Part shown: positions 4,118 to 59,556 of the stretch, piece after piece
Layout of the letters: each line of letters starts with the position of its first letter
Numbering within the stretch: position 1 is the first letter of the stretch
Assembly (NCBI GenBank): GCA_003223515.1
Contig: QHVI01000041.1
Coordinates: forward strand, 1 to 59,686
DNA length: 59,686 nucleotides
From: Candidatus Angelobacter sp. Gp1-AA117
GTDB taxonomy: Bacteria; Acidobacteriota; Terriglobia; Terriglobales; Acidobacteriaceae
Reading direction: 5' to 3'
Position numbers and translations under genes: made by a program
Notes under the pieces: generated by a model
What the model saw: the letters and a program-made list of their open reading frames with translations, nothing else
What the model was told of the DNA's origin: nothing
The model's database searches: none

Positions 4118-4129
4118 TTCTGTGGTTGA

Positions 4130-4192
4130 TTTTATCGACGTAAATCAGTGTTTATCGACGTCATCAGCGTCATCAGCGATAAGGTTTCCTTG
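4130..4192. repeat. ATCAGCG-type interspersed repeat
   Basis: The segment contains reiterated ATCGACGT/ATCAGTG/ATCAGCG units ending in CAGCGATAAGG. Related copies, some in inverse orientation, occur at 17157-17203, 53338-53370 and 56187-56236. It is non-coding and follows the stop of a glycosyltransferase gene. Confidence 0.6.
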
Positions 4193-4295
4193 CCTGGTTT
4201 CTCGGTAAACCTGATGAAACGGACTAAGATTCTTTCCCTCAATCGCCAGCTCTCGATTCTGCATCTGTACTAAGGTTAGCCTTCATATTTTATCT

Positions 4296-5351: not shown

Positions 5352-5454
5352 TGAGGTGGAAGCGCCGGACTTGAATGAATCAAACCCGCGTAGTGGGCAA
5401 AATAATTTCCAGACGTCTGTGTAGTTCGATTATTCGCAAGAGGGAACCTAAGAG

Positions 5455-7671: not shown

Positions 7672-7683
7672 GAACCCTTTCAA

Positions 7684-7838
7684 CGCAGAGGCCGCAGAGA
7701 GCGCAGAGGAGAATAGGTAAATAAGTAAATTGGCAAATGGGTAAATTTAAGGCCCGGATTTATCAACGAATTTCATTTACCCATTTACCAAATTACCCAT
7801 TTACCCACTGGCTTTGCGTCCTTCGCGTCCTTTGCGGT
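7684..7838. repeat. Nested inverted repeat: CGCAGAG arms around TTTACCCA-like arrays
   Basis: The outer arms (7684-7709, 7813-7838) are inverted CGCAGAG/CTTTGCG units. Inside them an inner pair of arms (7716-7748 and 7774-7808) consists of 7-8 base reiterations of TTTACCCA/TGGGTAAA. A further one-armed array of the same kind lies at 8408-8478. The element separates the debranching enzyme from the CDGSH gene and has no coding potential. Confidence 0.7.
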
Positions 7839-7870
7839 AAATTGCTTGATGAAGTCTCCCGGAGGAACTT

Positions 7871-8116
7871 ATGCCGCTCAAAGTCACGATCCGCAAGAAT
7901 GGCCCTTATCTGGTCTCAGGCGATCTCAACGAACTTGAACTCACCGATGCCGACGGCAACAAATACGACCTCACCGGCAAGCAGGCCGTGGCCCTGTGCC
8001 GCTGCGGCGCTTCTGTGAATAAGCCGTTCTGTGACGGCACCCATTCCAAGATTGGCTTCCAGGCCGCCGAAGCCGCCGTAAAGAACGAAGGCGGGCCGAT
8101 GGGCACCAAGATGTAG
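7871..8116 (+). CDS. CDGSH-type iron-sulfur protein
   Basis: An 81-residue soluble protein with one CDGSH domain. The cluster ligands are visible in CRCGASVNKPFCDGTHSKIGF: C-x-C, a spacer ending in K-P-F-C-D-G, and the single histidine ligand of a 3Cys-1His [2Fe-2S] site. Such proteins act as redox or cluster-transfer proteins. The partner is unknown here. A good ribosome-binding site (GGAGG, eight bases upstream) supports ATG 7871. The length is typical for a single-domain bacterial member. It stands between two repeat-rich spacers and is probably transcribed alone. Confidence 0.92.
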   Translation: MPLKVTIRKNGPYLVSGDLNELELTDADGNKYDLTGKQAVALCRCGASVNKPFCDGTHSKIGFQAAEAAVKNEGGPMGTKM

Positions 8117-8153
8117 CGAAGAATCTCTTGATAAGAGCCACACCCTCCCTTCT

Positions 8154-8388
8154 GTCATCCTGAGCTTCGCGCTTCGATGTGCCTCAATCCATGAAATGCG
8201 GTGGCGCGAAGCGTAAGGATCCCGCGGATGCTTACGCCACCATGCCGCATCAAGGCGTTTTCACGATGCATTTTCGTTGAAATGCCTTGCCGCTGCACCG
8301 TGGCTTAAGCATCCTCGGGGTCTTTCGCTGCGCGCCACAGAGTCTTGTTGTAGAGATGATGATATTCAGGCGCTGCGCTCAAGATGAC
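8154..8388. repeat. Imperfect palindromic element, about 235 bp (GTCATCCTGAGC termini)
   Basis: The ends GTCATCCTGAGC (8154-8165) and GCTCAAGATGAC (8377-8388) are inverted repeats with one mismatch. Internal arms also pair: GGTGGCGCGAAGCGTAAGGATC-like with the distal TAAGCATCC...GCTGCGCGCCAC, and CAAGGCGTTTTCA with TTGAAATGCCTTG around the centre. The whole 381-bp gene-free gap is filled by this element and a following array of CATTTACC/CATTCACC units (8408-8478). It resembles the dispersed long-hairpin elements common in acidobacterial genomes. No open reading frame is present. Confidence 0.65.
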
Positions 8389-8497
8389 AAGTGATAAGGG
8401 TTTTGCCTTTCATTTACTCATTTACCAAATTACCCATTCACCCATTCACGCATTCACGCATTCACCCATTCCCAATTATCTCTGCATCTAATACAAC

Positions 8498-9083
8498 GTG
8501 CCTCCCCGCCGTCCCGTCCTCCTGGCCGAACTCCCTGAAGGCTTTCTCTACCAGCCAGATTTCCTCAGCGAACATGAGGAATCCGAACTGCTGCAAACCA
8601 TTCGCTCTTTGAATTTCGAGAACTTTGATTTCCACGGCTACACCGCCAGACGCCGCATCGTGGAGTACGGCATGGAATATGACTTCTCCACGCGCAAGGC
8701 CACTGCCACCGAGGAGTTCCCGGATTACCTGCTCCCTTGCCGTGAGCGCGCCGCCCAGTTCGCTGGAATACCGCCGGAGGCATTGGTGGAATGCATTGTG
8801 ACCGAATACCCGCCCGGCGCTCCCATAGGCTGGCACCGCGACGCCCCGCAATTCGAGATCGTAATTGGCGTCTCCCTGGCCAGCACCTGCCGCATGCGCC
8901 TCAAGCCCTACAAAGGAGAAGGGAAGGATCATCTACCTGGTATTGGAACCCCGCTCCATCTATGTGATCCAGGGCAAAGCCAGATGGCAATTCCAGCACA
9001 GCATCACGCCGGTAGAAGAGACGCGCTATTCGATTACGTTTCGGACGTTGCGCCAGTCAAAGAAAATCCGTATGCCTGCATAA
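8498..9083 (+). pseudogene. AlkB-family 2-oxoglutarate/Fe(II) dioxygenase, frameshifted
   Basis: The gene encodes an AlkB-type oxygenase split over two frames. The first part (GTG 8498 to about 8930) includes FLSEHEESELL and the iron ligands H-x-D in GWHRDAPQF. Continuing in that frame gives nonsense, but the +1 frame from about 8925 reads YLVLEPRSIYVIQGKARWQFQHSITP, which supplies the second iron-binding His and ends in RYSITFRTLR with the 2-oxoglutarate-binding Arg, to a stop at 9083. One extra base near 8925-8937 explains it. Joined, the product is about 195 residues, the usual length of ALKBH2-like bacterial proteins. This is either a recent pseudogene or a sequencing error. Confidence 0.85.
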
Positions 9084-9090
9084 ATCAGGA

Positions 9091-9438
9091 CTACTTGCTT
9101 CCTTTGGCCGCCGTTACTGACTCGGCAGTGATGGTGTTGCCGCTTACCGTCCCTTTCACCGTCACTTGCTCTCCGGCATACTTATCCAGATCGGCAGCAT
9201 TGCCCTTCAGCGTATAGACCTTCTCGCCAACAACAAGAGCATAGTCTGAACCACTCTTCACACATTCGCGTGTACAGTCGGCTGCGCTCTTATCCTTCGC
9301 CATGTGCTTCGCTCCGCACATGGAATCGCTGATAACACCGGTCAGCGTCTTAGTCGTTGGCTTGTTATCCGCCGCGGAAGATGGCACACTGGCAACGCCC
9401 AGCAGTAACAGAATCATCAGAATCGCTTTTTTCGACAT
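9091..9438 (-). CDS. Small secreted Cys-containing protein at the end of the cus operon
   Basis: A 115-residue exported protein. A signal peptide (KKAILMILLLLGVASVPSSAA) is followed by GVISDSMCGAKHM, a C-x3-C pair (CTRECVKSG) and a small beta-rich domain with YALVVGEKVYTLKG and YAGEQVTVKGTV, which looks like an OB-like fold. ATG 9438 is chosen over an upstream start because GGGAG precedes it by seven bases and it sits right at the signal peptide. It lies 23 bp downstream of cusA on the same strand, so it is probably the last gene of the copper/silver efflux operon. Metal binding through the Cys/Met/His residues is a guess. Similar proteins recur in Acidobacteriota. Confidence 0.75.
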   Translation of the reverse strand: MSKKAILMILLLLGVASVPSSAADNKPTTKTLTGVISDSMCGAKHMAKDKSAADCTRECVKSGSDYALVVGEKVYTLKGNAADLDKYAGEQVTVKGTVSGNTITAESVTAAKGSK

Positions 9439-9461
9439 TACTTTTCTCCCTTTGAAAATCT

Positions 9462-12449
9462 TCAGGCTTTGGCCTGAGATTGTTGTGGTTGCAAGGTTCC
9501 CCGTTTCAGGGCCCTTTCTTTCATCAGCACAAAAAACACGGGAACCAGAATGAGCACATGGATGGTTGAGGTAATCATGCCACCCACAATGGGTGCGGCG
9601 ATCGGTTTCATCACGTCTGAGCCGATGCCTGTTTCCCACAAAATAGGAATGAGGCTGGCAAGCACCGCCGTGACTGTCATTAGCTTAGGTCGAAGTCTTT
9701 GTACTGCGCCCTCAATGGTTGCCTCTTCAATATCCTGGCTGGTCAATACTGCATCGGAATGTAGACGCTTATCAAGCGCCTCGTGCAGGTAGATCACCAT
9801 GACCACCCCGGTTTCTACGGCAATACCAAACAGGGCGATATAACCTACCCACACGGCCACACTGAAGTTGTATCCCATTATCCATTGCAGAAGCAGCCCG
9901 CCGGTCATCGCATAAAAAGTGGGGAAGATCAGGACAAGGGCTTCTGCGACTGAATGAAAAACCATGTAAAGCAGGAAGAAAATGGCGGCAAATACAATGG
10001 GCAGAATGACCTTCAGGCGCTCTTTCGCCCGGAGTTCAAATTCGTACTCGCCTGACCAGTGAAAAGCAAATCCTGGCTGCATCTTCAGGTTATCACGCAA
10101 CAGCCGGCCGGCTTGCTCAACAAAGCCTCCGTAGTCTTTGGTATTCAAGTCGAGGTAAACATAGCCTGTGAGTTGTCCATCTTCATCGCGGATCATCGCC
10201 GGCCCGCGAGAGATTGAAATTTTTGCCACCTGTTCAATCGGAATCTGTCCGCCTGAAGGTGTAGCCAGTAATACCCGATTCAGTGAGCCGATGTCGTCGC
10301 GAAAATCGCGCTCATAACGGACATTGACGGGATATCGCTCGCGGCCTTCAACGTTCTCCGTCATGTTCATTCCGCCAATGCCGGAAGAGACGGCCTGCTG
10401 CACATCGGCTACTGTCAACCCATAGCGAGCAGCTTCGGCACGATTCACTTCTACGTTGAGGTAGAACCCCTGGGAAACACGCTCGGCAAACAGGGAACGA
10501 ACCTGCGGCATTCCGGCGATGATCTGCTGAATTTTTGCGCCCATTTCCTGAATGCCATCCAGAGACGGGCCTTGTATCTTCATGCCGATGGGTGTCTTAA
10601 TGCCCGTTAATGCCATATCAAGGCGGTTCTGCACCGGCATGGTCCAGGTGTTGGAGAGGCCTGGGAACTGGAGTTTCTGGTCCATCTCCTGAATCAACTT
10701 CTCATAGGTCATTCCGCTGCGCCATTTCTCCCGCGGCTTGAGCATGATGGTGGTGTCATACATATCGAGCGGAGCATTGTCAGTCGAACTGTCGGAACGC
10801 CCAACTGTGCCGAACACCGTCTCCACCTCCGGGAATGAATGGATGATGCGGTCCTGCTCCTGCAGGAGTTGCGTAGCATCCGTAATGGCGATGCCCGGTA
10901 ATGCGGTCGGCATGTATAGAGAAGAGCCTTCGTAAAGCGCGGGCATGAATTGGCTGCCCAGCTTCCACGCCAGAGGAAAAGTCAGTACGAGGAAAAGCAG
11001 GTTCAACACCAGCGTGAGGGTTTTATGGCGCAGGCAGAACTTCAGCACCGGAAGATAGATAGCCTTGGTTGCGCTGGCGGCAGGGTTACTGGATTCAGGG
11101 TGAAGCTTGCCCCGGATGAATAACACCATCAGGACGGGAACAAGGGTGATCGCTAGTAAGGAAGAAAATGCTACAGCCAGCGATTTTGTCCAGGCCAGGG
11201 GCCGGAACATGCGTCCTTCCTGTGCTTCCAGCAGGAACACCGGCAGAAATGAGACCACGATAATAAGCAGTGAAAAGAACAATGCAGGGCCAACCTGCTT
11301 AGCGGCGGCAATCAGAATGCGGCGGCGTTCCGCATCGGGAACAACGCCACTTTCGGATAAGTGCCTGTAACCATTCTCGACCATCACGATGGCCGCATCC
11401 ACGAGTACTCCAATGGCCAGTGCCAGCCCGCCGAGTGACATGATGTTGGAACTCACATGCAGGTAATACATGGGAATAAAAGAACCGATGACTGCAATAG
11501 GCGGCGGCAGTGTTTTTTGAATCTCAGCCAGCTTTTTCTTGACGCCATTGATCACGTTGAGCGCATTGAGTCCATAGCGCATGATCACGATGCCGCCGAC
11601 GGTTTCACCCTCTCCCTGCCATTCGGCCACGCCTTCGCGGATGTCCGGGCCGAAGGAAACATTGCCTAGGTCTTTCAGCAAAACAGGCGTTCCATTTTTG
11701 ACAGTGACAGGAACATTCTCTAAATCAGACAAGCTGCGCAGATAACCCAGGCCGCGAATCATGTAACGCGTTCCTGCAAGTTCCATCACCCGCCCACCGA
11801 CCTCATTGGTGCTCGATTTCACACGGTCGAGAACTACTGAGAGCGGTATGCCATAGGCCAGCAGTTTGTTGGGGTCGAGTTTCACCTGGTACTGGCGTAC
11901 AAACCCGCCGATGGTTGCCACTTCCGCCACGCCGGGCACAGTTGCCAGATCGTAGCGCAGATGCCAGTCCTGAAGGCTGCGCAGATCGGCGAGGCTGTAG
12001 CGGTGAGTGTGATCCACCAAAGCGTATTCATAGACCCATCCGGCGCCGGTGGCATCCGGGCCAATCATCGGACTCACGCTCTGCGGCAGTCTCCCCCGGA
12101 TTTGCTGCATGTACTCCAGCACGCGGGAGCGGGCCCAATACATGTCGGTGCCATCCTCAAAAACTACAAACACGTAAGAGTCGTTCAGCATCGTCTGCCC
12201 GCGCACCGCTTTCACTCGCGGCGCGGCCAGCAACGCGGTCACGATGGGGTAGGTGACCTGGTCTTCAATGATGTTCGGCGGTTGGCCTTCCCAGTTGGTA
12301 TGGATGATCACCTGCACGTCGGATATGTCGGGCAGAGCATCCAGTGGAATATTGCTGATGGACCAGATTCCCGCCAGCACAACCGCAAGGGTTCCGGCGA
12401 AAACCAGAAAGCGGTTTTCTGCGCACCATTCAATAATTCGGGAGATCAT
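9462..12449 (-). CDS. cusA: Heavy-metal RND efflux pump, CusA/CzcA family (Cu/Ag type)
   Basis: A 995-residue inner-membrane proton-driven RND transporter that exports monovalent metal through the CusB/CusC channel. It starts MISRIIEWCAENRFLV, the first transmembrane helix. Recognisable segments are DVQVIIHTNWEGQPP, GVLVDAAIVMVEN (the TM4 region with its acidic relay residues), GTVGRSDSSTDNAPLDMY, and the pore loops GIGGMNMTENVEGRERYPV and GPAMIRDEDGQLTGYVYLD, whose methionines match positions used by CusA for Cu(I)/Ag(I). ATG 12449 is preferred: the stop of cusB is one base away and GGAGG lies seven bases upstream, inside cusB. It is slightly shorter than E. coli CusA. Confidence 0.93.
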   Translation of the reverse strand: MISRIIEWCAENRFLVFAGTLAVVLAGIWSISNIPLDALPDISDVQVIIHTNWEGQPPNIIEDQVTYPIVTALLAAPRVKAVRGQTMLNDSYVFVVFEDGTDMYWARSRVLEYMQQIRGRLPQSVSPMIGPDATGAGWVYEYALVDHTHRYSLADLRSLQDWHLRYDLATVPGVAEVATIGGFVRQYQVKLDPNKLLAYGIPLSVVLDRVKSSTNEVGGRVMELAGTRYMIRGLGYLRSLSDLENVPVTVKNGTPVLLKDLGNVSFGPDIREGVAEWQGEGETVGGIVIMRYGLNALNVINGVKKKLAEIQKTLPPPIAVIGSFIPMYYLHVSSNIMSLGGLALAIGVLVDAAIVMVENGYRHLSESGVVPDAERRRILIAAAKQVGPALFFSLLIIVVSFLPVFLLEAQEGRMFRPLAWTKSLAVAFSSLLAITLVPVLMVLFIRGKLHPESSNPAASATKAIYLPVLKFCLRHKTLTLVLNLLFLVLTFPLAWKLGSQFMPALYEGSSLYMPTALPGIAITDATQLLQEQDRIIHSFPEVETVFGTVGRSDSSTDNAPLDMYDTTIMLKPREKWRSGMTYEKLIQEMDQKLQFPGLSNTWTMPVQNRLDMALTGIKTPIGMKIQGPSLDGIQEMGAKIQQIIAGMPQVRSLFAERVSQGFYLNVEVNRAEAARYGLTVADVQQAVSSGIGGMNMTENVEGRERYPVNVRYERDFRDDIGSLNRVLLATPSGGQIPIEQVAKISISRGPAMIRDEDGQLTGYVYLDLNTKDYGGFVEQAGRLLRDNLKMQPGFAFHWSGEYEFELRAKERLKVILPIVFAAIFFLLYMVFHSVAEALVLIFPTFYAMTGGLLLQWIMGYNFSVAVWVGYIALFGIAVETGVVMVIYLHEALDKRLHSDAVLTSQDIEEATIEGAVQRLRPKLMTVTAVLASLIPILWETGIGSDVMKPIAAPIVGGMITSTIHVLILVPVFFVLMKERALKRGTLQPQQSQAKA

Positions 12450-12450
12450 C

Positions 12451-14016
12451 TCACATGCCTCCCGTTGCATTTACGTTCAATTGTTTGCCGGCAAGGGTAC
12501 GTCCGTTCTGCTGGGCTGTGATGGTGACCTGCCAGGTTCCACCCGACTCTAGTTCTCCGCTGCCTTCGTAAATTCCGTTGCCTTTATCCGAACAATTCAC
12601 CACAGTTTTCATGGCGCTCATTCCCATAGCGGGCATGGCGGGCATGAAGAAAGTGACGGTCACCTGTGCGCCGGTAATTGGCGAGCCGTTGTTGTCTAAA
12701 AGTTTTATGCGGAAGACATTCTCGCCTTTGTGCGGTGGCGAAGGTTCGGTGGTAAGCGTCACATCGGCGGTGGCCGCATTCATGGCGGCGGCTCCGCCAG
12801 CACCCGGCGGTGGTGGAATGAACGCTCCTGCGGCGGCCTGCAACTGGCTTTCTGAATCGATCAGGAAATTCGCTGAAGTAGCAAGAGCATCTCCGGCCTG
12901 AATGCCTTTCGTGATCACCACCTGCTCGCCCACCTGCAGGCCAGTTTGTACCTCCCGTGGCTCAAACTGTCCGGTTCCATGGCTGATGAAGACCACCTGC
13001 CGCGTGCCTGAATGAAAGACCGCGGAGGCCGGCACAACCAACTGCCGTCCCAGCGGAAGTTTCATCAGCACGTTGACATACATGCCGGGAGTCAGTTTCA
13101 AGCCAGGGTTCGCGAACACCAGACGCACCCGCGCTGTGCGGGTATTCATGTCTACCTGCGGCAGAATGGTTTCAACTCTTCCGCGAAAGGTCTTGCCGGG
13201 ATAAGCATCTATGGTAACTTCGGCGGCATCTCCCGGCTTGATCCTGCCTAAGTCCGTCTGAAAGACCTGCGCATATATCCAGACAGTGGAGAGATCGACA
13301 ACCGTGTACAGCCGAGTTTCCGGCTGAACGTACATGTTGGGCAGAGCATTTTTTTCTGTGACATAACCGGAGGCCGGAGAATTGAAAGTAAGATCAGTAA
13401 TCACCCTGCCGGTGGTTTCCAGCTTCTCGATTTCACTGGCAGGCACCTCCCATTGCGCCAGCCGTGCCCGCGCCGCTTCCAGCAGTGTTTGTGCGCCCGA
13501 GGCTACTCCGGTCACCGTGCTGGTTTTCATCGACTCGGAGTTTTTCCTGGCCAGCAGATATTCCTGCTCCGTGGTAACCAGGTCAGGGCTGTAGATGGTG
13601 AAGAGCGGCTGGCCTTTGCCAATGTACTGATATGTAGCATTCGCGTAAACCTTGCGAATCCAGCCGGGGAAGCGGGTCTGGACGTAAGAGATGCGGCGCT
13701 CATCAGCATCCACACTCCCGGTAACGCGCAATTCAGATTCAACCGTTTTCCATTGTGCTGTGCCGATCTTCACGCCGATACTCTGCATGCGCTGCGGAGT
13801 GAGTTGTACCGGGGCCAGAGGTGTTTCCGATGCGGGCGCGGCATTCGCGTTCATGCTCACTTGAGAGCTGCTTTGGGGGGATGCAGCAACGGATTTATCC
13901 TCAGGCGCGGGCTTGTGAGACTTCCACCACCAGAACCCTGCCACCGCCAGCAGCACCACGTTCACAAGCAGAGCCAGCATGAAAGCATTTCGATAATTGC
14001 GTTTTTCGGTGTTCAT
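12451..14016 (-). CDS. cusB: RND periplasmic adaptor CusB with C-terminal YtkA-like domain
   Basis: A 521-residue membrane-fusion protein bridging CusA and CusC. It has an N-terminal anchor (about residues 12-30), then QRMQSIGVKIGTAQWKTVESE, RFPGWIRKVYAN (lipoyl/hairpin segment), the beta-barrel VDLSTVWIYAQVFQTDLG and the membrane-proximal VPASAVFHSGTRQVVF. After an Ala/Pro-rich linker (about 400-420) comes an extra domain with FFMPAMPAMGMSAM and a beta-sandwich pattern (GNGIYEGSGELESGGTWQVTITA), like the YtkA/FixH-type domains found with copper proteins. That domain is absent from classical CusB and is methionine-rich. The gene overlaps cusC by four bases (ATGA). Confidence 0.92.
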   Translation of the reverse strand: MNTEKRNYRNAFMLALLVNVVLLAVAGFWWWKSHKPAPEDKSVAASPQSSSQVSMNANAAPASETPLAPVQLTPQRMQSIGVKIGTAQWKTVESELRVTGSVDADERRISYVQTRFPGWIRKVYANATYQYIGKGQPLFTIYSPDLVTTEQEYLLARKNSESMKTSTVTGVASGAQTLLEAARARLAQWEVPASEIEKLETTGRVITDLTFNSPASGYVTEKNALPNMYVQPETRLYTVVDLSTVWIYAQVFQTDLGRIKPGDAAEVTIDAYPGKTFRGRVETILPQVDMNTRTARVRLVFANPGLKLTPGMYVNVLMKLPLGRQLVVPASAVFHSGTRQVVFISHGTGQFEPREVQTGLQVGEQVVITKGIQAGDALATSANFLIDSESQLQAAAGAFIPPPPGAGGAAAMNAATADVTLTTEPSPPHKGENVFRIKLLDNNGSPITGAQVTVTFFMPAMPAMGMSAMKTVVNCSDKGNGIYEGSGELESGGTWQVTITAQQNGRTLAGKQLNVNATGGM

Positions 14017-15299
14017 GGCAGTGTGACTCCTGTGAGTGCTTCAATCTTTGCCAGCCCTGATTCATGGTCCGCGAGTTCCCGCTGATACTGAAGATCAACA
14101 TCAAGCGCATCAAGAAACGATGAAAGCAGGGTTTGAAAGTCCTGCCGGTTGGTCTGATAAGCAGCCAATGCCGCGCTGAACGTGGCGGCGGCCTGGGGAA
14201 TCAATCCTTCTTTGTAAATCTTCAGTTGTTCCGTGGATGTCTGCACGGCCACAAACTGCTCCTGCAGATCGGCCATCTGCCGCTGAGTTTCAATTCGCAC
14301 TTCCTGGGTCGCTCTTTCCTGTTTTTCGCGGGCTTCCGCGAGTTCGGCCCGCCGCCGTCCCCGGTTAGGCAGGTTGATGCCGAAGGTAAGTATGTAGTAA
14401 TCACGGAATTTCCGGTCGGTGTTCTGGTACATGTATTGCACGTTGAAATCAGGGCGAAACTCTTTCTGTGCCAGCGCCACCTGGGATTGCGTTTGCTTGA
14501 GCATTTCCTGCTGTGCGTGAACCTGGGGGTTCTGCTGCTGTATAAGCTGCAGGAGCTGGGATTGGGAATAGGGCTGGACTCGCTGCGCCAGCGGTTCGGC
14601 CACGATATCAGGCGAGTCCTGCGGGCGATCGAGCAACTGCTTGAGTTGTGCTTCGAGCTGCCCTTCATCGCGGCGGCTCATGGTGATTTCCTGCAGGATC
14701 TTTGTGTGCTGAAGCTGCGCTTTCAGAACCTCCTGCTGGCTTCCCTGACCTACGCGGTAACGGGATTCAGCGATCTGCTGCATCTCCCCCAGCACCTGGT
14801 CGTGATGCTCAAACACATGAATCGATTCCTGCACATAAGCCAGCCGGAAATAGGCTGATTTGATGCGCTCCAGCACATCGCGGCTGGTCGATTCGAGCTG
14901 TACATGCAGAGACTGGGCCTCGCGGCTGGCAACTTCCGCCCGCAGTTTTCTTTTGCCGGGATAAGGAATCTCCTGCGAGATACCAAGGCCGAGATAGGCG
15001 AAGTCGCTGTTCGTATATCCGGCAAAGGGGCGCGGACTGCCGACCGATACGTGCTGCAGCATCACCTGCGTATCCGGCAGTGCGGCGGCGCTTTCGGGCG
15101 CATGACTGGCGGCTTTCCAGGCATGACTGGCGGCCAGAATCTGCGGATTCTTTTGAGCAGCTTCTTCCACCAGGCTGGCCAGGGATGTGGCCCCTGGCGG
15201 GTGCTGCATCCCTTCCATGCGCTTCTGTGAAAACGCAGCTGGGAGTGCCATCAGCACCAATGCGGACGCAATAATTCCTGAACAATGAAAGGCTTTCAT
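14013..15299 (-). CDS. cusC: TolC-family outer-membrane factor of the Cus system
   Basis: An exported protein of 428 residues from ATG 15299, which has a strong GGAGGAAAG ribosome-binding site. An ATG 21 bases upstream is rejected because it lies within or before that site. A signal peptide (KAFHCSGIIASALVLMALPAAFS) precedes two outer-membrane-efflux-protein repeats. These have long coiled-coil stretches such as REAQSLHVQLESTSRDVLERIKSAYF and a second copy around AEAREKQERATQEVR. The protein is expected to form the outer-membrane exit duct for CusA/CusB. It is the first of the three core genes in the order C-B-A, all with overlaps or a one-base gap, so translational coupling is likely. Confidence 0.9.
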   Translation of the reverse strand: MKAFHCSGIIASALVLMALPAAFSQKRMEGMQHPPGATSLASLVEEAAQKNPQILAASHAWKAASHAPESAAALPDTQVMLQHVSVGSPRPFAGYTNSDFAYLGLGISQEIPYPGKRKLRAEVASREAQSLHVQLESTSRDVLERIKSAYFRLAYVQESIHVFEHHDQVLGEMQQIAESRYRVGQGSQQEVLKAQLQHTKILQEITMSRRDEGQLEAQLKQLLDRPQDSPDIVAEPLAQRVQPYSQSQLLQLIQQQNPQVHAQQEMLKQTQSQVALAQKEFRPDFNVQYMYQNTDRKFRDYYILTFGINLPNRGRRRAELAEAREKQERATQEVRIETQRQMADLQEQFVAVQTSTEQLKIYKEGLIPQAAATFSAALAAYQTNRQDFQTLLSSFLDALDVDLQYQRELADHESGLAKIEALTGVTLP

Positions 15300-15372
15300 C
15301 TTTCCTCCAAATGGAAACACAAATGCGCGAGCACACTTCAGGTATGCCTGCGCCGGAAAGCGAAAGCCAAGG

Positions 15373-15744
15373 CTAGATTCTTAGAATAGAGAGGGTTTCA
15401 GGCGGTGATTCAGGTGGAGAATGGGCCTGCATGAAAAGCTGCGCCTGGCTGAAAGTTGCAGGCGCCCATACGTCCATTCCCGTAACGTGCGTTGTGACTG
15501 AATATGCGATACCGGCGTTAAAGCGGGAGTTTGCCAGGTAAGAATCGCTATGACGGACAGTGACTTTGCAGCAGGAGTGCGAATCAGGCATCATTGCCGA
15601 TCCGCAGTGCTCGGCCATATGCCGGCAGCATTCGCGCTCGGATTCGGTGAACGTCTCGCCCGGAACCATGCAGGCCATCAAAGGCGAAGCCAACACGGAT
15701 AGCGCCAGGATGGCAGCAGCGAGTTTGCAAGTCCAGTTCAACAT
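15373..15744 (-). CDS. Small secreted Cys/His/Met-rich protein upstream of cusC
   Basis: A 123-residue protein with an N-terminal signal peptide (KLAAAILALSVLASPLMA) and a dense potential metal-binding stretch, ECCRHMAEHCGSAMMPDSHSCC, followed by a low-complexity tail. I do not recognise a named family. It is 73 bp upstream of cusC on the same strand, so it is probably the first gene of the copper/silver operon. A periplasmic metal buffer or sensor is a reasonable guess, since the stretch offers five Cys, three His and three Met residues. No enzymatic motif is visible. Confidence 0.65.
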   Translation of the reverse strand: MLNWTCKLAAAILALSVLASPLMACMVPGETFTESERECCRHMAEHCGSAMMPDSHSCCKVTVRHSDSYLANSRFNAGIAYSVTTHVTGMDVWAPATFSQAQLFMQAHSPPESPPETLSILRI

Positions 15745-15906
15745 GATTAGTTTAATCGCTCAGACAGAATGCGGCAATTTGCCTGCCTTTCAAGTCTCTG
15801 CTCTCGCGGAACTTCGGTCTGTGATCAGCGTCACAAGGCAATCGGCGTGTATTACCTGATAAACATTTGCCTTTTACCGGAACTCTCATTAAGATTCGCC
15901 CCGCTG

Positions 15907-15923
15907 GACAGGATTCCCCTGTC
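15907..15923. promoter_or_regulatory. Inverted repeat GACAGG-N5-CCTGTC upstream of the lysyl oxidase gene
   Basis: A perfect 6-bp inverted repeat with a five-base spacer lies 19 bases before the TTG start, in the divergent spacer between the cus operon and the lysyl oxidase gene. It could be an operator shared by the divergent promoters or an RNA hairpin near the ribosome-binding site. Position is the only evidence. Confidence 0.3.
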
Positions 15924-15941
15924 TAATGAAGGAGACTTCCC

Positions 15942-16820
15942 TTGAAGACTATAAAAATAATTGCTCTCTGCCTCTCTTTGCTGCTGCCGCTGATCGCCAG
16001 CGCGCAGAGCCCCCAAAGTCCCAGCAGCCAGCCTGATACCGTTGGGTTGCCCGATCTGGTTGTGAACAGCAACCTGCTGGGTGAACAGTGGGTCGTGCGT
16101 GATGAACAGCTCGATGGCACTTTGTGCAGCGTTGAAGAAGGCGGCATTACCCCTGGAATGCACACCCTTATACGCTTCACCGTGGAAACACCCAACATCG
16201 GCAATGCCGACATCGTTGTGGGTGATCCCAATGCTCACGTCGCTGCCGGTGATGGCTTGTTTGAATTTGCCACCTGCCACCACCACTATCACTTCCGCCA
16301 CTATGCCAAGTACGAACTGATCGATCCCGTAACCGGCTTTGTATGGAAGGCGGCCAAGAAGGGTTTCTGCATGCTGGATACCGATCCTGCTCCAACAGCC
16401 ACCAGCGGCCAGCAACCGCAAAGCCCGCAATTCAGGAATTGCGGAACCATCGGCATCCCCGGCAACCAGGGCATCAGCCATGGCTGGGCCGATACCTACC
16501 GCTTCTTCCTCGGTGGACAGTACTTCATCCTTGATGGTGGAGATGGACAACCTCCCGTCCCTTCGGGAACGTACATCATTCGCATCACCGTCAACCCACC
16601 CTTCAAGCCGGCTCCCGGCGAGCCCTGCAGATTCCTGGAGAGGATCGACACGGATGGACAGCCGATCTGCCACCAGTTGCCGGAATCCGATTTCAGCAAC
16701 AACGTAGGCGAGGCGACCGTCTTCATTCCCGATCATCCGGGGAAGCAGGGAGTCGGTCCCGGCGCTGGAACACCTGCCCAGGAAGACAAGGACGAGCACG
16801 GGAATCAGATTCCCAAATAG
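15942..16820 (+). CDS. Secreted lysyl oxidase-like copper protein
   Basis: A 292-residue exported protein (signal peptide KTIKIIALCLSLLLPLIASA) resembling lysyl oxidase. The copper-binding motif is present as CHHHYHF, followed by YELIDPVTG. KKGFCMLDTD matches the conserved lysine region of LOX (K-x-x-F-C). GISHGWADTYRFFLGGQYFIL carries the tyrosine that could form the lysyl-tyrosylquinone cofactor with it. GTYIIRITVNPPF and ESDFSNNV match the LOX C-terminal strands. Known members oxidise primary amines such as peptidyl lysine. The TTG start is supported by AAGGAG seven bases upstream. It is divergent from the copper efflux operon, which suits a copper-dependent secreted enzyme. Substrate is unknown. 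Confidence 0.82.
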   Translation: MKTIKIIALCLSLLLPLIASAQSPQSPSSQPDTVGLPDLVVNSNLLGEQWVVRDEQLDGTLCSVEEGGITPGMHTLIRFTVETPNIGNADIVVGDPNAHVAAGDGLFEFATCHHHYHFRHYAKYELIDPVTGFVWKAAKKGFCMLDTDPAPTATSGQQPQSPQFRNCGTIGIPGNQGISHGWADTYRFFLGGQYFILDGGDGQPPVPSGTYIIRITVNPPFKPAPGEPCRFLERIDTDGQPICHQLPESDFSNNVGEATVFIPDHPGKQGVGPGAGTPAQEDKDEHGNQIPK

Positions 16821-16844
16821 TAAATCTCAGAGCATTGCCGCAAA

Positions 16845-16878
16845 CACGAAGGCGAGATCAGGGCATCTCGCCTTTGTG
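16845..16878 (+). terminator. Strong hairpin after the lysyl oxidase gene
   Basis: The stem CACGAAGGCGAGAT/ATCTCGCCTTTGTG (14 bp with one G-U pair) and loop CAGGGC lie 24 bases after the stop codon. The trailing TGTGTATT is only a weak U-tract, so efficiency is uncertain. Position and stability fit an intrinsic terminator for the upstream gene. Confidence 0.6.
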
Positions 16879-17292
16879 TATTACAGCAGCGGATTTTCAT
16901 GATACAACACGAGGATTCTCAACGCACATGTAAATGCGATTCGTCATCCCGAGGGCTCTCCACGTAGTGGAGATTCGGAGGCACCCCTTGTCTGACTGAA
17001 ATGCCCGGACATCCCTGGAAACAGTGGCGCGATGGTGGACTGCCGATGGAGCATCTCGATTTGGCCGAGATTCTCCGCCAGACCTCCCCCTGAAAACACA
17101 AAAGCCGGCGAATTGAAACAGAGCCGCCAAGCCCGTGAGACTTTTCTTTCACGAAAATTGATCAGTGTGAATCAGGGTCATCTGCGTTATCAGCGGTAAG
17201 ATTTTTCATTATGTGTCAACACGAAAATTTCCTGCTAATTTCTGAAACCTTTTGTCGTCTAACCCCGTATTCATAGGAACAGAGGGGTCTAG
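16879..17292. other. Non-coding spacer with decayed repeats
   Basis: No gene was found. The segment contains TCGTCATCCCGAGGGC followed by CTCCAC-GTA-GTGGAG, which looks like a one-ended remnant of the GTCATCCTGAGC-type element. An ATCAGTG/ATCAGCG-type repeat lies at 17157-17203, and its reverse complement matches 56187-56236. The ADOP gene begins after a GAGGGG ribosome-binding site at the right edge. Confidence 0.55.
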
Positions 17293-19686
17293 ATGAATCT
17301 TGTTGGAAATATTCGTTATGCCCTGCGGCAGTTCAGGTTGTCGCCTGTGTTTACTGGTGCGGCGGTGCTCACGCTGGCCCTGGGAATCGGGGGAACTACC
17401 GCGATTTTCACGCTCATTCATGCAGTGATGCTGCGGTCGCTGCCGGTTTCTGATCCTGCCCGGCTGTACCGCGTGGGCGAAGGCGATGACTGCTGCGTGG
17501 AAGGCGGGCCGCAGGATCGCTGGGGGATGTTTTCTTATCCTCTGTACGAGCGGCTGAAGGCAGAGACGCCGGAATTTGAAGAGGTGACGGCATTCCAGGC
17601 CGGGCCAAACCGTATGGCCGTGAGGCGGGAAAAAGTTGAATCGGTGGCGCGCACGCTACGCACCGAATATGTGACGGGAACCTATTTCTCCGTACTGGGT
17701 GTGGGAGCGTTTGGCGGACGGGTATTGACGCCAGCCGATGACACGCCCGCGTCTACACCAGTGGCGGTGTTGAGCCATCATGTCTGGCAGACGGTTTATG
17801 GCAGCGATCCGGCGGTCGTGGGTTCGACATTCATGATTGAGGGGCATCCATTCACAGTTGTGGGAATTGCGCCGCCGGGATTTTTCGGGGAGACGCTGCG
17901 CAGCGATCCTCCGGATCTATGGGTTCCCCTGCAGCAGGAGCCATTGATTGCAGGAGACAGTTCCTTGCTGCACCAATCCATTTCGGCATGGCTGCGCATG
18001 ATTGGCCGGTTGAAGCCCGGAGCGTCAGTGCAGGGAATGTCACCGCGCCTGACGGGGCTTCTGCGGCAATGGATCGAGCATGATTCCGGGTATCCTGCCA
18101 ACTGGCTGCCGGACATTGTTCGAATGCTTCCCAAGCAGAATCTCAATGTGGTGCCTGCGGGCGCAGGGGTGGCGGTGATGAAAGAGGAGTACGGGCGCAG
18201 CCTGCAAATCCTGCTGGTGGTGTGCGGGCTGGTGCTGCTGATTGCCTGCGCCAACGTAGCCAACCTGCTGCTGGCGCGCGGAGTGGCGCGGCGCACACAA
18301 ACCGCGGTGCGGATGGCGGTGGGCGCCTCGCGGCGGCAGATCATTCATTACGCCCTGACGGAAAGCATCCTGCTGGCGATTGGCGGGGCGATTGCCGGAC
18401 TGGTGGTTGCCATTGGAGCGGCAACATTGCGCGGGTCGGGCCGGAGCACCAGCGACCGCTCAACCTTCGCGCGCAAAGCGCTGCTGGTGGTGCAGGCTAC
18501 TTTATCGGTGGTGCTGGTGTCAGGCGCAACCATGCTGGCGCGCAGCCTCAACAAGCTGGAGCACCAGGATTTCGGATTCCAGGTGCAGAACCGGGTCATG
18601 GTGGCGCTGCACGAACCACCAGCCAGCTACCCGCTGCCGAAGCTGATGTCGATTTACCGGCAGCTTGAAGAGCGGCTCAGCAGTTTGCCGGGAGTACAAG
18701 GCGCAGGGCTGGCCATGTACAACCCGCTCACCGATAACTGGGGTGAGGGAATTCTGGTACAGGGGCATCCGCAGCCCAAGATGGGTGAGGAATCGGGCGC
18801 TTCATGGGACCGGATGAGCGCGAGCTATCTCCAGAACCTGGGCATGCCGATGGTGCGCGGACGTTACTTCACTGCCGCGGACAACGAGACGGCGCAACTG
18901 GTAGCAATCGTGAATGAAGCTTTTGTGAAACGCTTCTTCAAGAGCAATGAAGATCCCCTGGACCAGCACTTCGGCATCGACCTGCCGGAACTTGCCAGCA
19001 CCTTCCGAATCATAGGAGTAGTGCGCGACGCCAAGTTTGCGGGATTCCAATTGAGCAAGCCGGCACGCCCCATGTTTTATGTACCGCTGATGCAGACGGT
19101 GAATTATCCGCACCCACTGCTGAAGAAGATTGAGCTGCGCTCGCATTACATCAGCGGAATCATGCTGGTGACGCAGGCCTCGCCGGGCGCACTGGAGCCG
19201 GTGCTTACGCGGGCGCTGGCAGAGGTGGACCCGAACCTGACTATTGACAACGTGCGAACGCTGCAACAGCAGGTGGATTACTCTTTTGAGCAGGAGCGCT
19301 CCGTGGCCGGACTCGCCGCCCTGTTTGGCATCGTGGCGCTGCTGCTGGCGGCGGTGGGGCTCTACGGGGTGACGGCGTACACGGTGGCGCAGCGGACGCA
19401 GGAGATCGGCATCCGCATGGCGCTGGGCGCTGACCGCGCCAACGTGGTGCAGATGGTACTGCGGGGAGCGTCGATGCGGGTGCTGACGGGAATCGTTCTT
19501 GGGTTGCCGCTGGCTGTGGGCGCAGGCAAGCTGATCTCGGCACAGCTCTATGGGGTTTCGATCTACGATCCTCCGGCGTTGGGTGCAGCGACCATTGCGT
19601 TGTCGGTTTCGGCGTTTCTGGCGGCGATCATCCCGGCGGGCAGGGCGGCGTCGATCTCGCCGATGAGAGCGTTGCGAACGGAATAA
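17293..19686 (+). CDS. ADOP-type MacB/FtsX ABC transporter permease
   Basis: A 797-residue inner-membrane protein of the acidobacterial 'ADOP' permease type (two FtsX units). It has an N-terminal helix in LTLALGIGGTTAIFTLI, a periplasmic MacB-PCD region (about 45-290), the first FtsX block (ILLVVCGLVLLIACANVANLLLARG, RTQTAVRMAVGASRRQI), a second periplasmic region, and a C-terminal FtsX block (LFGIVALLLAAVGLYGVTAYTVAQRTQEIGIRMALGA). No ATPase is adjacent, as usual for ADOPs. After GLVVAIGAA (near 18420) the sequence passes straight into TLRGSGRSTSDRSTFARKALLVVQ. The family normally has about 55-60 extra residues there, including a helix, so an in-frame deletion is likely. Function unknown. 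Confidence 0.88.
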   Translation: MNLVGNIRYALRQFRLSPVFTGAAVLTLALGIGGTTAIFTLIHAVMLRSLPVSDPARLYRVGEGDDCCVEGGPQDRWGMFSYPLYERLKAETPEFEEVTAFQAGPNRMAVRREKVESVARTLRTEYVTGTYFSVLGVGAFGGRVLTPADDTPASTPVAVLSHHVWQTVYGSDPAVVGSTFMIEGHPFTVVGIAPPGFFGETLRSDPPDLWVPLQQEPLIAGDSSLLHQSISAWLRMIGRLKPGASVQGMSPRLTGLLRQWIEHDSGYPANWLPDIVRMLPKQNLNVVPAGAGVAVMKEEYGRSLQILLVVCGLVLLIACANVANLLLARGVARRTQTAVRMAVGASRRQIIHYALTESILLAIGGAIAGLVVAIGAATLRGSGRSTSDRSTFARKALLVVQATLSVVLVSGATMLARSLNKLEHQDFGFQVQNRVMVALHEPPASYPLPKLMSIYRQLEERLSSLPGVQGAGLAMYNPLTDNWGEGILVQGHPQPKMGEESGASWDRMSASYLQNLGMPMVRGRYFTAADNETAQLVAIVNEAFVKRFFKSNEDPLDQHFGIDLPELASTFRIIGVVRDAKFAGFQLSKPARPMFYVPLMQTVNYPHPLLKKIELRSHYISGIMLVTQASPGALEPVLTRALAEVDPNLTIDNVRTLQQQVDYSFEQERSVAGLAALFGIVALLLAAVGLYGVTAYTVAQRTQEIGIRMALGADRANVVQMVLRGASMRVLTGIVLGLPLAVGAGKLISAQLYGVSIYDPPALGAATIALSVSAFLAAIIPAGRAASISPMRALRTE

Positions 19687-56166: not shown

Positions 56167-56186
56167 TTTTCGCGAAGGGCAAAGGC

Positions 56187-56236
56187 AAAATCTTACCGCT
56201 GATGACGCTGATAAACGCAGATCAACGCTGATACTT
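56187..56236. repeat. ATCAGCG-type interspersed repeat (inverse orientation)
   Basis: The segment reads AAAATCTTACCGCTGATGACG followed by CTGATAAACGCAGATCAACGCTGATAC. Its start matches the reverse complement of 17157-17203. It is the fourth visible copy of this dispersed family and lies between the CoA-binding and antitoxin genes. Confidence 0.6.
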
Positions 56237-56498
56237 GAGGGTAAATAACGAATTGAAGAACTGGACCATAACCGAGGCAAAGGCGAGATTTTGCGAACTC
56301 TTGGAGCGGGCAAGCTCAGACGGACCACAAACGATTACTCGTTATGGCCGAAAGGTCGCCGTGGTTGTGGCTTCCAAAGAGTACGAGCGGAAAAAGGTGC
56401 GCAAGGGCAGTCTTGCTGACTTCTTTGCGGCATCTCCATTGCGCGGATCAGGATTGGTGGTAAGCCGAATTCGAGGTCGTCTGCGGGCATTAAAATAA
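56235..56498 (+). CDS. Orphan Phd/YefM-type antitoxin
   Basis: An 87-residue DNA-binding antitoxin-like protein. TITEAKARFCELLERASSDGPQTITRYGRKVAVVVASKEYE matches the Phd/YefM fold, followed by a basic toxin-binding-like tail (about 55-87). The start is uncertain: TTG 56235 is the longest option, and TTG 56253 (giving MKNWTITEAK) fits homologues better. No toxin gene follows. The next 320 bp are occupied by a MITE-like element, so the toxin was either lost or the element inserted at its place. Such orphans may still neutralise another toxin or repress transcription. Confidence 0.75.
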   Translation: MRVNNELKNWTITEAKARFCELLERASSDGPQTITRYGRKVAVVVASKEYERKKVRKGSLADFFAASPLRGSGLVVSRIRGRLRALK

Positions 56499-56564: not shown

Positions 56565-56779
56565 ATAGCTCCCCCAGGGCAATCGCATGAAAACCTTTTA
56601 ACGCGCCAAAGTCCGGTATTTGAGGAGTTGAATGGCAGTCTTAACGGTGTGAGGCTGGATTTTAATTGCCAAAGAACCTCTCAGCCGTGGATGTTGAACC
56701 ATATTCAACAACATTAGCTCTGGCATGAACCTGCAATCAGATGGAAAATTCTTTCATGCGATTGCCCTGATAGCTCCCC
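56565..56779. mobile_element. MITE-like element with 18-bp perfect TIRs and 10-bp direct repeats
   Basis: CAGGGCAATCGCATGAAA (56575-56592) and its exact reverse complement TTTCATGCGATTGCCCTG (56752-56769) bound a 195-bp gene-free segment. Directly outside both ends lies the direct repeat ATAGCTCCCC (56565-56574 and 56770-56779), as expected for a target-site duplication. No transposase frame exists inside, so it is non-autonomous. The terminal sequence and the 10-bp duplication would suit an IS4-family parent, but this is from memory and untested. The rest of the 322-bp gap shows nothing else. Confidence 0.85.
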
Positions 56780-56820: not shown

Positions 56821-59556
56821 CTAATCCCCATTTCTTACAAGATGTAAATCGGTAATTAATTGCAAGCATGGATCTTGCGCAAAAAAGTGTTGTAGTTGCT
56901 TCAGAAGGGGGGCGAGGCCATTTGTCCCTGGGGAGATTGACAGCGGACAATTATAATTTGCAGCCTTGTATGTAGCGTGTTGTTTCTCTCCATTCCCTTG
57001 TAATTTGTCAAATAGAAAACAGTGTCCATTTTCTGGGTCACGATGAGTAGCACATGGATACCAAAATATCAGGGGTGTTAAAGGAAGAGCTATGCCACGT
57101 TCAGGCCATATGATGAATGATTCTGCTTCTGAGTAAGAATGAATACCAGAGTATCGGAGATAGTCAGTATGGGGAGGTTTGCCATGGCTAATGCGGAATC
57201 TCCCCGAATATTGTTGAGAAAATGGTTCTTTTTGGATATTTTCAAAAAAACCGAATGGTGTTTTTGAGAATATTTCGTTGCTAACATTCGATAAGACCTT
57301 CACAGCTGTCAAGATTTCATCTTTTTCGCTCACGGCAAGCTCATGCCGAGCTTGGGCCCACAATTTTATTGCATGATCAAATATTTTTTCGTTATTTCCC
57401 TCTAAGAGCTTTTTGTATGGGGCTGTGAGTTCGGCTCGTTTTCCAAGGTGATATTGCGCCACCTCCAGCATTTTCCATAAGTAACTCGCAGAACGGTGAG
57501 GGAAATTGCTAAAAATCCGAGTCGCCCCGCGTCGGTCTATGCTGCACATCTCCATATAACTGACGTATGCCGCTAAGCATATCCCGGCTTCCAAGAAACT
57601 TACTCCTGGTGGAACAATTCCATGTTGCTGATAGTCCCCTATGAACTTGGCCAGAGGAACAGCTAATGGACTTGGCAGTGATTCGACAAGTTCACCAATC
57701 TCTTTCCAGCTTGCATCTCGACTTCGACTTTCTATCAGTTGAACCCAATTTCGGTCGATATACGACACCGCAGTATTGCTTGTACCAAAATCCAGTCCAA
57801 CATATGCCTCACCTGAACTGCCTGACGCATCAGTCATATCAACAAAAAACTTCCGTCCCTCTTTTGAAATCTCAGGAGCATTCGGAGTGGCACACCGATA
57901 CACAAATTTAGGAAGGGCTGTGCCATCAGATCGAATTGTTAGCTGCACCTGTAAAGCCGCATCGAATTCGCACTTGGCAGGAGTGTGAAGGATTGTTTCC
58001 TCTACATTCTGGCGATTTTTTACGTCTGATGGATCCATAGTCGACTGCAAAAAATAATAATCAAGCCGTTGCCGGGGAGCTCGACTCAGTTTTACCCTCC
58101 ACTGCATTGGCCGATCAACAAAAGACGAAAGCAAGCTTGCTGTGGGAACGAGTAACCCAGGACGCTGCCTCACGTCCGGCAGCCCTTCGGAGCGTCCTGC
58201 AAATGCCTTTAGTTCACAGCCAGCGTCGTCCGGATTTAAAAGTAAAAACAAAGGATTATAAGTAACCCCTTTGAAGTCACTATTACCTGTAGCAAATTCT
58301 CGAGCACAGTCCACCGCTAATCCCTGTGCAACCACCTGCTGGTAATCAGGGATTTGAACCACAGGGACCCGAGACAAGTATTCCGAAAAGTCCCGTCTAA
58401 GAAGTTGTGTCAACCAGCCAAAATTGGCAGACCCGCCCGACAAAAGAATCACAGTTAAAGGAGCTCCCTCCAGAACTGCCTTTCCAGCACGCAGGCGGTC
58501 AGAAAAAAATGGCTTTAGAAGGGGTGAGTATATTTTTTGAATAAAGACTTCACGTAATTCGTTAACCGACATAGTTGCCGGGGTTAGTCTTCCATTCAAC
58601 ACAAAAGGATCTAAGGGTATAGGTACAGATGCTGAGAACCGCTGTTCCTCTGATAAAGACCAATCTGTAACTGATCGTGAGAGGGCTAATTTGAGCACTT
58701 CTACCTGATGTACAATACGGTGAAAATTAGAAATGAAATTTCTGTATTTTTCATGAATTGCTTCTATTGAGCGTCGTCCTTCTTGCCAATCTCTGTATTC
58801 ATGAAGACCAGTTTTAATTTGTGCTTCGAACTGGCCGCAGATCTTTCGTATGAGATACTCCGCGATAGCCCGGTTTATGCTGAATCCACCAATTGGTAAT
58901 GATTTACCGGCGAGAGGTCTCTTGTTCGCTCCGCTTCCACTGATATCTCCTTCTTTTGTGCTTTGGATAATACAAACGTCACATGTCCCTCCACCAAAAT
59001 CAATGACCAAAGCATTCATCTGGGCTTGCTGTGAGACCAGTGGATGCCGAATCCCGTGTCGATAATATTGAAATGCAGCAAAAGGTTCCGGGATGAAGCG
59101 AACATTGACACCTCCATTTGAAAGAACAGTTTTGCCTTCAAGTAATCGGCGAACGGCATTTCTATAGTTAGCAAGCCACTCAGGTGAAACTTCTTCAGTG
59201 TGCATCGAAAGTGGCTCTGCTACTACCAGATTTTTGCATTCGACTATTCCACGACTGACTAGCCATGATTTAATTATTTTCTGGATTTCATATAAAAAGT
59301 CATCTGCAATTTGAAGCGCAGTTTTCCGTTGACCGATTGCCGTCAAATACATTCTCTTAGATTGCGCAGTGGGAGAAAATCGGCCGAGGTCAATTTTGAA
59401 ATCTTCATGGATGATTGTGTCATCTGAAGCTGCGGAGAGCGCAGCATTGCCTACAACAACTGCATTTTGATCATACAGAACAGCTGTTGGTATATTCCAA
59501 CTGCCGTCTACCTCGACCATTTGAACACTATGAATAAAAAATTCTTTTTCAGCCAT
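56821..59556 (-). CDS. Hsp70/actin-fold ATPase-like protein with permuted motif order
   Basis: A 911-residue protein, AT-richer than its neighbours. It begins directly with what normally follows the phosphate-1 hairpin of Hsp70 (SWNIPTAVLYDQNAVVVGNAAL). Then come the connect-like FIPEPFAAFQYYRHG, phosphate-2 ALVIDFGGGTCDVCII (D186) and the adenosine motif LLSGGSANFGWL (G374/G375). A classical phosphate-1 motif, AYVGLDFGTSNTAVSYID (D589), appears only after about 200 further residues. Upstream codons contain a stop within 24 codons and no start, so the N-terminus is not simply truncated by start choice. The C-terminal 300 residues match nothing I recognise. No partner gene is in view; the promoter side is at the window edge. 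Confidence 0.78.
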   Translation of the reverse strand: MAEKEFFIHSVQMVEVDGSWNIPTAVLYDQNAVVVGNAALSAASDDTIIHEDFKIDLGRFSPTAQSKRMYLTAIGQRKTALQIADDFLYEIQKIIKSWLVSRGIVECKNLVVAEPLSMHTEEVSPEWLANYRNAVRRLLEGKTVLSNGGVNVRFIPEPFAAFQYYRHGIRHPLVSQQAQMNALVIDFGGGTCDVCIIQSTKEGDISGSGANKRPLAGKSLPIGGFSINRAIAEYLIRKICGQFEAQIKTGLHEYRDWQEGRRSIEAIHEKYRNFISNFHRIVHQVEVLKLALSRSVTDWSLSEEQRFSASVPIPLDPFVLNGRLTPATMSVNELREVFIQKIYSPLLKPFFSDRLRAGKAVLEGAPLTVILLSGGSANFGWLTQLLRRDFSEYLSRVPVVQIPDYQQVVAQGLAVDCAREFATGNSDFKGVTYNPLFLLLNPDDAGCELKAFAGRSEGLPDVRQRPGLLVPTASLLSSFVDRPMQWRVKLSRAPRQRLDYYFLQSTMDPSDVKNRQNVEETILHTPAKCEFDAALQVQLTIRSDGTALPKFVYRCATPNAPEISKEGRKFFVDMTDASGSSGEAYVGLDFGTSNTAVSYIDRNWVQLIESRSRDASWKEIGELVESLPSPLAVPLAKFIGDYQQHGIVPPGVSFLEAGICLAAYVSYMEMCSIDRRGATRIFSNFPHRSASYLWKMLEVAQYHLGKRAELTAPYKKLLEGNNEKIFDHAIKLWAQARHELAVSEKDEILTAVKVLSNVSNEIFSKTPFGFFENIQKEPFSQQYSGRFRISHGKPPHTDYLRYSGIHSYSEAESFIIWPERGIALPLTPLIFWYPCATHRDPENGHCFLFDKLQGNGEKQHATYKAANYNCPLSISPGTNGLAPLLKQLQHFFAQDPCLQLITDLHLVRNGD

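Follow-up and report, generated by a model that had tools for sequence, protein, structure and literature searches.

Introduction

To our knowledge, ATPases of the Hsp70, actin and sugar-kinase types share one order of the segments that form the ATP site, namely phosphate-1, connect-1, phosphate-2 and adenosine. The coupling between the two parts of Hsp70 is an old question. With respect to restriction-type defence, we know of no gene of the type described here among the core genes of DISARM or BREX.

The ATP-site motifs of the superfamily are named in passages of PMC1079889, and CoCoNuT type IV restriction systems contain Hsp70-like units with a proposed role in RNA binding, according to passages of PMC11090510. 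A permuted Hsp70 does not appear in the passages of PMC4664246, PMC7824862 and PMC8195603, and titles, abstract beginnings and passages, covering few subscription papers, yielded no description of a permuted Hsp70 or of such a gene beside BREX or DISARM.

The window analysed here, an entire contig of 59,686 bases from a source genome of 206 contigs, carries on its minus strand an intact open reading frame of 911 amino acids (56821..59556), which has full-length homologues and starts 130 bases from the contig end. The original prediction had seen in it an ATPase of the Hsp70/actin fold with permuted ATP-binding motifs, explained either by circular permutation or by fusion with a second, truncated ATPase copy, and possibly belonging to a defence or stress system. 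As judged from profile alignments and motif order, it is close to certain that the protein is a single, circularly permuted Hsp70-type ATPase, and the neighbours of its relatives in other genomes make a role in defence likely, if by indirect evidence.

Results

In the window protein, the phosphate-2 motif (DFGGGTCD, residues 184-193 with D186, G188-G190 and D193; 58978..59007, minus strand), which is included in the best-scoring stretch of the Pfam, NCBIfam and PDB searches, and the adenosine motif located by alignments (LLSGGSAN, residues 371-378 with G374/G375; 58423..58446, minus strand) both precede the sole phosphate-1 hairpin (residues 584-609, including LDFGTSN with D589, G591, T592 and S593; 57730..57807, minus strand), an order that had been predicted and that a motif scan and a check of the open reading frame confirmed. 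The main part of the NBD, delimited by hhalign to residues 17-424 (58285..59508, minus strand), holds K54 and E157 besides the first two motifs. Its residues 17-418 align with residues 31-374 of the DnaK encoded in the same genome, and residues 581-609, at the hairpin, with DnaK 2-28; jointly, the two pieces cover the parent NBD once and in swapped order. A motif scan of the window protein detected no second phosphate-1-like or phosphate-2-like motif, and the presence of only one phosphate-2 and one adenosine motif indicates one domain in swapped order and not two ATPases. Circular permutation, the first of the two explanations offered originally, is thus borne out by complementary Hsp70 pieces.

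The second explanation, a fusion of two ATPase copies, was rejected, as phosphate-2, adenosine and phosphate-1 are present once each and no second copy of the phosphate-2 or adenosine motif accompanies them.

The hhalign E-values, each that of a single comparison, amount for the main part to 5.6e-9 against three Hsp70s of the source genome and to 4.7e-21 against an alignment of 12 Hsp70-type open reading frames (12 of 13 were aligned, L009 being left out). On the profile of the latter, the hairpin is placed at positions 4-27 with an E-value of 2.4e-8 if compared separately and of 1.3e-5 as part of the whole profile, while its second-best placement, at positions 189-209, reaches only 0.049. The match of the hairpin to the three Hsp70s of the source genome is weaker (8.1e-5 alone and 0.0028 within the whole profile). 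As the 12 open reading frames had been selected for having phosphate-1, they provide no evidence on how common this motif is.

The N-terminus begins past phosphate-1, as had been proposed, and seems to be complete: an in-frame stop ends 66 bases 5' of the ATG, and the stretch of 130 bases that remains upstream to the contig end (59557..59686, minus strand; motif scan and stop check) contains no phosphate-1 motif in its three forward frames. Most homologous open reading frames start at or near the same residue as the window protein. The longest open reading frames of L022 and L028 extend further upstream, without a phosphate-1 motif, and a single motif match upstream, in one frame of the Aureimonas locus, is taken as chance.

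Searches of the window protein against Pfam and NCBIfam gave no family above cut-off, and PADLOC assigned no family either to it or to the copy of the Bradyrhizobium barranii plasmid. For the Hsp70 family PF00012, with a curated cut-off of 20.6 bits, the window protein scores 10.4 bits, the B. barranii copy 20.2 bits and the G869 copy 17.2 bits, all below. DnaK, MreB and actin-like proteins give weak library matches that cluster for the most part around the phosphate-2 stretch, and the top PDB sequence match is an actin-family protein aligned over the phosphate-2 and adenosine stretches. Within the source genome, a protein search found no other relative at E 10, and the Pfam Hsp70 model matches four other places. 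With a GC content of 0.442 against 0.546 for the contig, the gene has the foreign base composition noted at the outset.

A protein search of plasmids recovered a full-length copy, 34% identical, on the B. barranii plasmid (two records carry identical copies), a C-terminal fragment of the gene on a B. japonicum plasmid (L019), and two further plasmid records with weak matches only. A DNA-level search of plasmids, a first genome scan with a single-sequence query and a search of phage records and viral contigs found no relative. A scan of genome contigs with a two-row profile added nine loci, from a Terriglobia MAG, a Nitrospinae MAG, Geomonas oryzae, Aureimonas, a Sphingomonas MAG, Sphingopyxis flava, Mesorhizobium, an Acidobacteria gp1 MAG and Bradyrhizobium BTAi1, and genome searches contributed the loci G437, G869 and G1724. 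Together with the window, 15 distinct loci are available, of which ten are intact, four broken (L026, L027, L029 and L039) and one is the fragment L019. The intact members derive from Acidobacteriota, Nitrospinota, Geobacteraceae and Alphaproteobacteria and from three other genomes.

The gene family is rare and spread across phyla. Besides the source genome itself, the sample of its phylum held no full-length copy in 395 genomes (with 11 weak partial matches), the sample of its order one in 199, which is broken, and further genome samples 0/296, 1/194, 0/297, 0/1 and 1/384; since only a few first-look candidates were scored per genome, the absences among these counts are not firm. The GC content of the gene is below that of its flanks in 9/9 members, from near equality in Nitrospinae (0.448 against 0.451, a difference of 0.003) to G1724 (L054), where the gene has 0.427 and the locus 0.610. 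For at least four copies, the contig measures 3.6 Mb or more.

Phosphate-1 stands last in all ten distinct intact members, the window included, each of which carries DFGTS far downstream; broken copies and the fragment are excluded from these motif counts. The conserved permuted order that the original prediction had called for among homologues was thus found, and homologues with a normal N-terminal phosphate-1, which were to count against it, did not occur among the same ten. In Geomonas, an additional DFGTT is present at residue 439, just past the adenosine region, where it faces other letters in the alignment. Truncation, frameshift or a contig artefact as the origin of the order is ruled out by the intact homologues that share it.

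Invariant in the nine aligned members are K54, E157, D186, G188-G190, D193, G374 and G375 and, on the side of the hairpin, G587, D589, G591, T592 and S593. Residue 191 is T in eight members and S in one, and at residue 427, which might also belong to the site, eight members have D and one has E. With K54 opposite DnaK K70 (by visual counting along the hhalign alignment), equivalents of DnaK D8, T11, K70, E171 and D194, which we take to be ATP-site residues, are present and invariant in 9/9. The window copy is long-branched (1.29 changes per column, compared with 0.38 for L022, its neighbour with a pairing support of 82/86) and thus seems to be fast-evolving; its core ATP-site residues are nonetheless intact.

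The model of the whole protein, built from seven sequences with the plasmid row left out, is of moderate quality (pLDDT 68.6, pTM 0.46). It matches Hsp70 and Hsp110 structures, with a best Foldseek E-value of 4.9e-13 and with structures of these two types making up nearly all of the 50 matches listed. Targets that consist of the NBD only superpose with a TM-score of 0.60-0.64 of the target and an rmsd of 5-7, and longer ones comprising NBD and SBD poorly, with 0.38-0.50 and 14-27. The length of most of the top 25 targets exceeds that of the NBD, suggesting that the strand-rich middle region (residues 425-583; 57808..58284, minus strand) was matched to the peptide-binding sandwich; in this low-confidence part of the model, the middle region thus possibly resembles the peptide-binding beta sandwich of Hsp70, for which hhalign against the Hsp70 sets gave no sequence support. 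For the hairpin, the model shows two strands (584-590 and 594-601) in a block with a pLDDT of 55-59, and residues 575-582 and 603-614 around it have a pLDDT under 50.

One title among the 50 Foldseek matches listed, that of a ciliary complex, names neither Hsp70 nor Hsp110, and another title is truncated.

The C-terminal domain (residues 610-911; 56824..57729, minus strand) is predicted to consist of helices followed by a strand-rich part, and modelled separately as residues 600-911 it reaches a pLDDT of 80.8 and a pTM of 0.82. At E 1e-3, neither the PDB nor the viral library yields a match to its fold (best 0.017), and by sequence its best PDB hit has an E-value of 0.19; the region of about 300 residues initially noted as unrecognised accordingly has no match in the libraries searched.

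At six of the 15 loci, or five if the related Bradyrhizobium plasmids are counted once, defence genes lie directly downstream on the same strand. In B. barranii, the start of drmD, of which only a short N-terminal piece is left, overlaps the gene by 4 bases, and genes matching ZacA-C lie further downstream of this piece. In B. japonicum, the gene fragment is followed by drmD (again with a 4-base overlap, and split into two open reading frames) and then drmMI. An SspF/DndF-like gene is located directly downstream in the Terriglobia MAG; a search performed without positive control found no SspF-like gene elsewhere in the genome of the window. In Mesorhizobium, GmrSD with a Schlafen AlbA-type domain comes directly after the gene, then a cytosine methylase, and two genes upstream show weak, below cut-off likeness to ParB. 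G869 is followed by type III Mod and Res, with a 6-base gap between the gene and the type III methylase, and is preceded on the same strand by a DrmD-like helicase, GmrSD, a HARE-HTH gene and DUF2130. In G1724, a BREX operon begins 261 bases downstream, in which BrxB, BrxC, PglX and BrxL were recognised; relatives of its first gene occur in seven plasmid records, the same as for BrxB, and a 757-aa gene of the operon has no PDB match.

Among the neighbours scanned at the other nine loci, no defence gene was recognised. These are Nitrospinae (near secA and dnaX), Geomonas (near an AcrB-type gene), Sphingomonas (near lepA), BTAi1 (near rpoD), Aureimonas, where a 595-aa gene behind the copy has neither a family nor a PDB match, Sphingopyxis, the gp1 MAG, G437 and the window. 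The last offers a short antitoxin-like open reading frame and a gene of CoA-binding type on the other strand, both named by eye, and its upstream side lies off the contig. Across loci, no single neighbour is constant. The link to defence that had been suspected hence draws indirect support from the neighbourhoods in other genomes and none from the window itself.

Defence genes account for 5 of 11 scanned downstream genes. As a control served one contig, that of the window, on which 2 to 5 of 39 other open reading frames match any PADLOC model at E 1e-5; the p-values are 0.004, 0.009 and 0.03 against 2, 3 or 5 of 39, and 0.012, 0.025 and 0.07 if the related Bradyrhizobium copies are counted once (4 of 10). 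The statistic leaves aside the BREX locus of G1724, includes two of 11 loci with more than 700 bases to the next gene, takes for L019 the second open reading frame downstream as the drmD entry, and compares test and control genes that were selected differently. The excess over the one-contig control, weak at the upper bound of the control, is an indication only.

Discussion

The order of segments suggests that the phosphate-1 hairpin (Asp-x-Gly-Thr) moved from the N-terminus to a position that follows the beta-rich middle part and precedes a new C-terminal domain, from where it would fold back into the N-terminal lobe and complete one ATP cleft. Since the hairpin is joined to the middle region as well as to the C-terminal domain, the ATP state could act directly on them, and binding or hydrolysis of ATP would pull directly on both. 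To judge from the neighbourhoods in other genomes, the protein may work in restriction-type anti-phage islands, either as an optional partner or on its own, and there it might serve as a switch or chaperone timed by ATP, capturing or remodelling a protein of the phage or of the restriction complex. The changing partners point to a role usable by several systems and not to that of a fixed subunit of one. Taken together, we favour, with some reserve, a permuted Hsp70-type ATPase with a composite cleft and a switch or chaperone role in restriction-type defence.

The permutation could be real and the protein still a general chaperone or stress ATPase without a role in defence, with neighbours that reflect islands catching foreign genes, a reading which we regard as unlikely but which deserves attention. 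It accommodates the nine of 15 loci without a recognised defence neighbour, the copies near housekeeping genes and the modest excess over the one-contig control; rarity, low GC content and broken copies, however, fit a co-regulated defence gene better, as do the 4-base overlaps with drmD and the 6-base gap to the type III methylase.

We give a low probability to an Hsp70-like sensor that binds RNA or nucleoproteins and hydrolyses ATP weakly if at all, as has been proposed for CnuD of CoCoNuT. Passages of PMC11090510 place Hsp70-like NBD/SBD units in restriction systems, with RNA binding as a suggested function, but they also report degenerate Walker A-like motifs, whereas the core site residues are invariant in the family described here, and the neighbours scanned, a part of all neighbours, include no recognised McrB or McrC gene.

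An actin-like filament former, active in plasmid segregation or as a scaffold in place of a chaperone-like switch, is very improbable. The top PDB sequence match and the two weakly ParB-like genes upstream in Mesorhizobium would agree with it; yet Hsp70 and Hsp110 structures dominate the listed Foldseek matches, no constant ParB-like partner was seen, and at least four copies are carried by megabase-sized contigs.

That an ordinary Hsp70-like protein lost its N-terminal hairpin by truncation, frameshift or at the contig end and that its later DFGTS is a chance match can be dismissed, as, despite the closeness of the contig end and the broken copies at four other loci, the in-frame stop 5' of the start, the absence of phosphate-1 before phosphate-2 in all ten intact members and the distinct placement of the hairpin on Hsp70 positions 4-27 contradict it, and intact homologues in other genomes have in our view already refuted it.

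Beyond the favoured permuted switch or chaperone of restriction-type defence, it is plausible, and put forward here tentatively, that permuted Hsp70s constitute an undescribed class of defence ATPases, wide but thin in distribution, which serves BREX, DISARM, Ssp/Dnd and type III and IV systems and in which the nucleotide state is coupled through the hairpin, located between the sandwich and the C-terminal domain. A permutation kept across phyla would, if true, imply that the order of segments is unnecessary for the ATP site. It would also link the peptide-binding part with the ATPase core by a novel connection, making Hsp70 coupling testable from a new angle, and would bring in a further ATPase found repeatedly next to different restriction-type systems.

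Compared with described systems, the permuted gene shares with class 1 DISARM (drmD, drmMI) and BREX that it directly precedes their genes in some genomes. It is not constantly present with their core genes: the systems differ by genome, in other genomes none was recognised, and protein searches found no match to the permuted gene in seven plasmid records with BrxC matched over 80% or more. With CnuD/CnuCD of CoCoNuT, it has in common a Hsp70-like NBD/SBD unit in restriction-type defence loci; those proteins are linked to McrB/McrC and have degenerate motifs, unlike the intact core residues here, and the passages of PMC11090510 do not mention a permutation. Hsp70/DnaK (PF00012) resembles the permuted protein in the NBD as aligned by profiles, in the core ATP-site residues, in the fold of the model and possibly in the beta sandwich, whereas the permuted protein adds a C-terminal domain of about 300 residues, unmatched in the libraries searched, and carries its phosphate-1 hairpin behind the middle region.

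Four of the 15 distinct loci of the permuted Hsp70-type ATPase gene, namely L039, L026, L027 and L029, carry copies that are broken by frame changes or stops, as exemplified by the copy at positions 7436-10142 of L039, and the host of one of the four is a two-contig genome from the window's own family. These broken copies are consistent with rapid gain and loss of the gene, although those in the MAGs may reflect draft errors.

In the window, the 3' end of the gene is adjoined by a 196-base element (positions 56574-56769), which is probably a small transposable element; its ends are 25-base inverted repeats with 88% complementarity, and one other copy, of 97% identity, is present in the same genome (G000:C131). 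Nearby, at approximately 56182-56233, lies a dispersed repeat some 45 bases long, which has, among the matches listed, many copies in the same genome and in genus-mates. A short plus-strand open reading frame (56235-56498) was judged by eye to resemble a Phd/YefM-type antitoxin, and no toxin partner was seen for it.

At L038, the locus of the G869 copy, a long run of genes all on one strand (3587-17685) encodes, in this order, a DrmD-like helicase, GmrSD, HARE-HTH, DUF2130, the permuted Hsp70, and type III Mod and Res, and is adjoined by a gene for a UvrD/GajB-like helicase; this run may represent a composite restriction system. Downstream of the Bradyrhizobium barranii copy (L018, 16066-22757), genes for DUF6361, PLD-like and helicase proteins match ZacA, ZacB and ZacC of PADLOC.
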